This document shows, piece after piece, positions 61,908 to 63,135 of a DNA stretch of 64,000 nucleotides. The notes beneath the pieces are model-generated. The model had not been told where the DNA came from. It saw nothing but the letters and a program-made list of their open reading frames with translations, and did not search any database. The position numbers and the translations under genes were made by a program. This stretch comes from Aquipuribacter sp. SD81 (GTDB lineage: Bacteria > Actinomycetota > Actinomycetes > Actinomycetales > JBBAYJ01). Location: NCBI RefSeq assembly GCF_037153975.1, contig NZ_JBBAYJ010000007.1, positions 1 to 64,000 of the forward strand. The letters run 5' to 3'. Within the stretch, counting starts at the first letter, position 1, and each line of letters starts with the position of its first letter.

Positions 61908-61980
61908 GGGGCTGTGGCGCAGCTGGTAGCGCACCTCGTTCGCAACGAGGGGGTCAGGGGTTCGAGTCCCCTCAGCTCCA
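61908..61980 (+). tRNA. tRNA-Ala (CGC anticodon)
   Basis: A 73-nt cloverleaf: acceptor strands GGGGCTG and CAGCTCC include the G3-U70 wobble that identifies alanine tRNA. The anticodon loop TTCGCAA holds CGC at 61941-61943, the T arm contains GGTTCGAGTCC, and the discriminator is A. CCA is not encoded. Confidence 0.96.
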
Positions 61981-62076: not shown

Positions 62077-62652
62077 GTGGGACGCATCCTCTTCGACACC
62101 GCCACGAGCATCGACGGCTTCATCGCCGACCCGGACGGCTCCCTCGCCTGGCTCTTCGCCGTCGAGGGGGGCGAGGACCCCGACGAGGCGCTCTTCCCCA
62201 GCGGCGCGAGCGTGCTCGTCGAGGGCTCGACGACGTACGAGTGGATCCTCCGCGAGGAGGACGTGCTCGCCCACCCCGAGAAGTGGCAGGGCTTCCACGG
62301 CGACCGCCCGACGTTCGTCTTCACCCACCGGGACCTGCCGGTGCCCACCGGTGCCGACGTGCGGTTCGTGCGCGGGCCGGTCGCCGACGTCCTGCCGCGG
62401 CTGCGCGAGGCCGCCGGCGACGGCGACATCTGGGTCGTGGGAGGGGGCGACCTCGCCGGTCAGTTCCTCGACGCGGGCGCCCTCGACGAGGTCGCCCTGT
62501 CCGTGGCGCCGGTCGCCCTCGGCGGCGGCGCGCCGCTGCTGCCGCGGCGCGTCACCTCCGAGCGGCTCCGGCTGCGCTCCGCCGCCGCCCACGGGCAGTT
62601 CGCTCGGCTCGTCTACGAGGTCCGGCCGGCGCACGACGCGCTCAGCCCGTGA
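62077..62652 (+). CDS. RibD C-terminal / dihydrofolate-reductase-fold protein
   Basis: This 191-residue protein has the RibD_C fold: RILFDTATSIDGFIADPDGS at the start, LVEGSTTYEWI, PTFVFTHRDLP, IWVVGGGDLAGQFLDAGALD and LSVAPVALGGGAPLLP. These match the dihydrofolate-reductase-like family common in actinomycetes, which bind NADPH and act on unknown pterin-like or flavin-like substrates. It is convergent with the DUF427 remnant, and its last 11 nt overlap that frame antisense. Confidence 0.87.
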   Translation: MGRILFDTATSIDGFIADPDGSLAWLFAVEGGEDPDEALFPSGASVLVEGSTTYEWILREEDVLAHPEKWQGFHGDRPTFVFTHRDLPVPTGADVRFVRGPVADVLPRLREAAGDGDIWVVGGGDLAGQFLDAGALDEVALSVAPVALGGGAPLLPRRVTSERLRLRSAAAHGQFARLVYEVRPAHDALSP

Positions 62653-62905
62653 CGCGCCCGTCGACCTCGGTCCGTACGCCCCCACCCATGAAGCACACGT
62701 GCCCGGGCAGCGGCAGCGCCTCGGGCAGCGGCTCCTCGTAGCCCCACGCGACGTCGGCGGGGCCGCCGACGAGCGAGCGGTACGTCGCGTCGCCCTCGTA
62801 CGGGCAGGCGTGGCCGTGGTGCTGTCGCGCGGCCCCTCCGGCGTCGCGAGCGCACGGACGTACGTCGGGCACGAGCAGCAGCAGGTGGTCGGTGCCGCGG
62901 TCGCC
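62642..62905 (-). pseudogene. DUF427 gene remnant (C-terminal half)
   Basis: The frame encodes HACPYEGDATYRSL, then DVAWGYEEPLPEALPLPG and a VDGRV ending, which are the conserved second half of DUF427. The N-terminal strands of the family are missing. Upstream in frame is a TAA (62906-62908), then the palindromic repeat block. A GTG at 62872 could make a 76-residue protein, but without half the fold. Most likely a gene truncated when the repeats formed or inserted. Confidence 0.6.
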
Positions 62906-62920
62906 TTAACGCTCGGACGT

Positions 62921-63074
62921 GTCGTGCACGACCACCTGGAGGGGGCGGGTGTCGCCGCTGCCTCACGCACGACCGTGTCGTGCCCGACCGTCTCGTGCGC
63001 GACCCTGTCGGGCGCGACACGGTCGTGCGTGACGCGAGTGGTGCAGCACCTCGCCCCAGGTGGTCGTGCACGAC
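62921..63074. repeat. 154-bp imperfect palindrome
   Basis: Outer arms (62921-62939 and 63056-63074) are 19-nt exact inverted repeats built on GTCGTGCACGAC. Inner arms (62963-62988 and 63007-63032) match at 25 of 26 positions. Both pairs share one centre at 62997.5, with equal 23-nt spacers, so the whole block is one symmetric structure able to form a long hairpin or cruciform. It has no coding features. Confidence 0.85.
62967..63041. repeat. 15-bp tandem repeat, five imperfect copies
   Basis: Units begin GCACGACCGTGTCGT, GCCCGACCGTCTCGT, GCGCGACCCTGTCGG, GCGCGACACGGTCGT and GCGTGACGCGAGTGG. Each unit has internal dyad symmetry, which partly generates the larger palindrome. Confidence 0.7.
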
Positions 63075-63135
63075 CGATCCCTACGACCGATCCCTACGAC
63101 CGGTCCGTACGACCGGTGCCTGCGACCGGCCCGCA
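63071..63135. repeat. 13-bp tandem repeat, five copies (iteron-like)
   Basis: CGACCGATCCCTA occurs twice exactly, then CGACCGGTCCGTA, CGACCGGTGCCTG and CGACCGGCCCGCA. The 13-bp period is not a multiple of 3, so the array is non-coding. It directly abuts the palindrome. Confidence 0.8.

Follow-up and report, generated by a model that had tools for sequence, protein, structure and literature searches.

We identified the block at 62921-63134 of the window (the whole 64,000-nt stretch analysed, from contig C7 of Aquipuribacter sp. SD81) as, with a probability of about 60%, a member of a REP/BIME- or MITE-like family of palindromic repeats that is non-coding, dispersed and specific to this lineage. 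The results showed 17 loci of one architecture in this genome, absence of the element at syntenic sites in congeners, and a position of the copies that is nearly always just 3' of genes. We regard the family as previously unlisted and as having its own architecture, with a resemblance to known bacterial intergenic palindromes. The original prediction had offered three readings of the block: a protein-binding control element, an iteron origin or a non-autonomous mobile palindrome. The last fits best, because other copies exist in the genome and the congener sites are empty, and protein binding by the dyads is plausible because conservation is much stronger in them than in the spacers. An iteron origin was not supported: the family has 17 loci, and the window copy is flanked by genes for RibD_C, a DUF427 remnant and a protein-O-mannosyltransferase (PMT), none of which is a replication gene.

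The predicted palindrome and arrays proved to be real, with two co-centred inverted repeats, five 15-bp dyad units and five 13-bp units at the right coordinates. The whole element, delimited by its inverted repeat, dyads, RNA fold and the 17 related loci, is a 154-bp imperfect palindrome (62921-63074) with arms at 62921-62995 and 63000-63074 that are 76% complementary around a 4-nt centre; the second inverted repeat (62974-63003 and 63007-63036) shares this centre. The 12-bp dyads start at 62921, 62962, 62977, 62992, 63007, 63022 and 63063, giving spacings of 41, 15, 15, 15, 15 and 41 bp. The left outer dyad, GTCGTGCACGAC (62921-62932), is followed by a 29-bp spacer (62933-62961) starting with CACCTGGAGG, which corresponds to the family motif CNCCTGRGG. 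Repeat and dyad mapping then placed five inner dyads in 15-bp steps, separated by 3-bp linkers, at 62962-63033. The right 29-bp spacer (63034-63062), delimited by dyad mapping and half-element comparison, and the right outer dyad GTCGTGCACGAC (63063-63074), delimited by half-element comparison, complete the element. Repeat comparison showed five 13-bp tandem units at 63070-63134, the first of which shares the last 5 bp of the right outer dyad. Matches to the repeat unit within the window numbered 28, against 10.3 ± 3.5 expected. The RNA of the block folded into a single long hairpin (-158.9 kcal/mol, z -9.2; 0 of 200 shuffles equalled it), and an Rfam search of the element returned only sub-threshold hairpin (miRNA) look-alikes, none above the gathering score. 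We rejected a coding array, in which 15 bp would be five codons, because the 41-bp spacings break the frame and the ORFs entering the arrays look like caller artefacts.

The suggested check for further genome copies was positive. A blast of the block against its own genome gave many secondary matches of 69-93% identity, and reading these yielded the 17 loci, all built from 12-bp dyads GTCGYGCRCGAC and spread over contigs C1 (two loci), C2 (six), C4, C5, C7 (the window), C8, C12, C14, C16, C23 and C40. The family order is an outer dyad, a 29-bp spacer, inner dyads every 15 bp, a second 29-bp spacer and an outer dyad, with the generic form RTMG-GTCGTGCACGAC - 29-bp spacer starting CNCCTGRGG - CTCACGCACGAC - (YGT GTCGYGCACGAC)n - centre - inverse. 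Each of the 13 arrays tabulated holds 3 to 10 inner dyads in 15-bp register, and element length across the family is about 70-350 bp. Some copies carry additional 56-bp repeats, each a 27-bp dyad pair plus a 29-bp spacer, and three half-elements were found (C16:16488, C2:190961 and C2:192941). A 72-position sequence model of the half-element detected no additional locus in the genome at E < 1e-3.

To compare syntenic sites, we used two congeners, G001 and G002, and found sites without the element at six places, as the empty-site check had envisaged. In G002, purH and mdh lie about 51 bp apart with a plain hairpin in the gap, which here measures 237 bp and includes the element; the gap between deoA and add is about 37 bp in G002, about 10 bp in G001 and 420 bp here; these gene names were read from translations plus an mdh scan rather than from family searches. 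The occupied gaps on C14, C12 and C23 measure 355, 336 and 439 bp, against about 9, 80 and 17 bp in a congener, and C2:190918-193157 is 2240 bp long, against about 50 bp in G002. At all six readable sites the congener gaps were short and the element was absent. The extra DNA at occupied sites extends beyond the outer dyads, and several such stretches are tandem arrays. The simplest reading of these alignments is that the blocks were most likely gained in the SD81 species; loss in both congeners could in principle give the same pattern.

No relative was found outside SD81 in several searches. The half-element model gave only background in G001 and G002, and 396 genomes of the order contained no relative outside its own genome at E ≤ 1e-5. 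The exact core was not found outside its own genome in GTDB r220, a scan that may omit records close to that genome. The core pattern had no match in IMG/VR, and blastn against phages and plasmids had none either. With 2 mismatches allowed, the core pattern gave scattered matches only, mostly single, in the other genomes among 149 relatives. No paper carrying the dyad string was found among those searched.

We then compared 35 half-elements. The outer dyad is near-invariant, at about 1.9 bits per column, and the inner dyads are strongly conserved, whereas the spacers carry about 0.6 bits per column and yet are 28-30 bp long every time. What persists is thus the dyads and their distances and not the spacers, which suggests protein sites. 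Between the two arms of one locus, the spacers were no more complementary than between arms from different loci (permutation p 0.18 and 0.34). Co-evolving hairpin arms were accordingly unsupported across the family, though the arms of the window copy, and of the C23 copy, pair better than in other copies.

These patterns raise the alternative that the copies are chromosomal binding-site clusters, that is, operator arrays for a dimeric DNA-binding protein (a nucleoid, segregation or domain-boundary factor) that are kept for function, with palindromicity as a by-product. Besides the conserved dyads and spacing, the permutation result favours it, as the spacers are not being preserved for pairing in a long hairpin; so does clustering, as six of the 17 loci lie within 41 kb (C2:152384-193064; simulated P about 5e-6), which would not be expected of a freely jumping element. 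We nevertheless consider it unlikely. A core chromosome system would not be expected to be missing from both congeners and the 396 genomes, unit number is highly variable, and clear intergenic solitary sites are lacking: the 15 solitary exact 12-mers in the genome look coding (mostly VVHD), except for one or two unclear cases. The same 12-mers were rejected as a regulon. The G002 stretch syntenic to the six-locus C2 region is colinear and longer.

The arrays also carry signs of local growth. Neighbouring 15-mers within an element are 78% identical, compared with 66% between loci, and nine neighbours are identical, which is taken from the sequences as recent tandem duplication. At the window copy, each 13-bp unit combines one half of the terminal dyad (ACGACC-like) with 7 bp of flanking sequence, and the units are more diverged farther from the element. 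Tandem arrays touch the element end at C7, C2:156709, C16 and C23; units with the terminal half-dyad are 10 bp long at C2:156709 and 16 bp at C16. Since the 13-bp unit starts with the terminal half-dyad, the palindrome and the array are not independent, and the end of the element is probably where both originated. Beside the C23 element, a long degenerate CGGTCGGTC-type tandem array (C23:51081-51229) is missing at the same gene pair in G002 and G001.

Flank-derived units, identical neighbouring units and the failure to find target duplications would also be consistent with replication-repair debris, in which slippage and template switching at hairpin-prone sites made the arrays with no mobile element involved. 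This explanation appears very improbable, because 17 unlinked sites share their dyads, linkers, CCTGRGG motif and 41-bp spacing, which local slippage cannot bring about. Under the preferred reading of a dispersed repeat family, the copies would have been inserted by a putative trans-acting enzyme recognising the 12-bp dyads as a dimer site or, alternatively, through copying during replication or repair. Once a copy is in place, its 15-bp, 56-bp and flank-derived (10/13/16-bp) arrays may expand and shrink by slippage or unequal exchange. Strong spacer differences between copies make a single recent burst not obvious.

Gene positions around the loci were determined with a simple codon-usage gene caller. 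A stop codon lies within about 20-125 bp of the element at 15-16 of the 17 loci, several copies lie between convergent genes, and no clear case of a divergent gene pair was seen among the 17, the C8 locus being uncertain. The family is thus extragenic, multi-copy and mainly 3' of genes, and REPs have the same positional pattern, being extragenic and mainly 3' of genes between convergent or unidirectional ORFs (PMC3733652). Copies just past stop codons, several of them convergent, together with the strong folding of every full copy (z between about -5 and -13), would suit transcription-end elements, in which a large RNA hairpin ends or protects the transcript and this role explains why the element was copied from one 3' end to another. 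However, a U-tract is missing 3' of the hairpin, and at purH-mdh a conventional hairpin, as in both congeners, can be read beside the element and so was not replaced by it. We judge this role distinctly improbable as the explanation of the family. If the copies are instead dispersed repeats, selection may have purged insertions near promoters or in genes, so that copies persist in 3' spacers, where a hairpin in the transcript may stabilise upstream mRNA or block read-through.

The block had also been predicted to have displaced half of a DUF427 gene. The gene is indeed truncated relative to congener G002, and the loss had been understated, with roughly the last 60 amino acids left. The remnant is the C-terminal end of the gene (62642-62872, minus strand) and matches only profile positions 43-91 of 93 in Pfam PF04248. 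In G002 the longer homologue, an ORF of 320 aa, has two DUF427-like halves, as read from its translation, and is followed by two smaller ORFs before PMT; about the last 60 amino acids of this ORF align here, at 62657-62818. About 1.5 kb of G002 sequence corresponds to about 0.35 kb here, containing the element and the array. The element is a possible cause of the truncation. On the other side, the C-terminal part of PMT (Pfam PF16192; 63176-64000, minus strand) has its stop codon 101 bp from the element. A tRNA gene lies at 61908-61980 of the window (Rfam tRNA, 68 bits), about 1 kb upstream of the block, and a tRNA gene is also close to the DUF427 homologue in G002.

To look for a mobiliser, we examined the flanks and the genome for traces of transposition. 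The target duplication that had been proposed as a check was not found around the copies: shared flank words were not in excess (4.5 vs 4.9 bp), with element ends that are themselves uncertain. The Y1 (RAYT) transposase family PF01797 had 0 matches in the genome, which is 96.7% complete, and the controls were positive. Neither a transposase-like gene nor an autonomous copy was recognised in the flanks examined, in a draft assembly where family searches covered a minority of the flank genes. The block at C2:190961-193064 has a left half-element (190961-191029) and right half-elements (192941-193064), with 1.9 kb between them. The bracketed segment (C2:191030-192940) has a GC content of 0.67, against 0.76 in its surroundings, and contains two ORFs (223 and 308 aa) that matched no Pfam, NCBIfam or PHROGs family; searching viral sequences with the cargo protein gave no relative. 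G002 lacks the whole 2.2-kb block. The segment may equally well have inserted into an element already there or have been transported by it. A bolder version of the mobile reading would be a new kind of bacterial mobile palindrome, made of 12-bp dyad chains and moved without target duplication by a putative dyad-binding enzyme, which would seed arrays at its edges and could carry genes; we consider this rather unlikely.

Among known systems, the family appears functionally closest to REP/BIME or MITE-type repeats and lies outside the tagged REP/RAYT families. Like the GTAG- and CGTC-tagged REP/BIME elements (PMC3733652), it consists of extragenic palindromes with many copies per species, mostly downstream of genes, often in inverted pairs with spacers and sometimes clustered with flanking DNA in tandem. 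Known REP units are 20-40 bp long with a GTAG or CGTC tag, and GTAG families have RAYT transposases (PMC3733652), whereas the SD81 elements are about 70-350 bp long and string 12-bp dyads together at 41/15-bp spacing. Of 25 outer ends, about 5 have GTAG before the outer dyad, and the external ends include GTCG, GTAG, ATCG and others. With no invariant GTAG/CGTC tag and no Y1 transposase, membership of the tagged REP/RAYT families was rejected. MITE-like bacterial sequences such as RU elements (PMC2759123, PMC2229807) are likewise short, non-coding, palindromic, dispersed and intergenic, and the SD81 family is short, non-coding and dispersed with terminal inverted repeats; it differs in that no target duplication and no parental transposon were found and in its arrays of internal dyads, whose number varies.

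Catalogued tagged REP families are mostly from Proteobacteria, and CGTC families have no known mobiliser (PMC3733652). Within the searches made, the SD81 family is restricted to a single actinobacterial species of high GC, and its empty sister sites, fixed dyad spacing and visible array growth make it a clean case for finding a repeat-spreading agent. Because the conserved dyad is a single 12-bp sequence, a cognate protein can be searched for directly.

CRISPR arrays are a resemblance only, in the 56-bp-period stretches on C5 and C2 where 29-bp spacers separate copies of a 27-bp palindromic repeat. We rejected this assignment because the SD81 spacers are related or duplicated, share CNCCTGRGG and are near-identical between neighbours, rather than unique. 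CRISPR finders could miscall the two mimicking stretches, C5:130367-130550 and C2:162865-163008.
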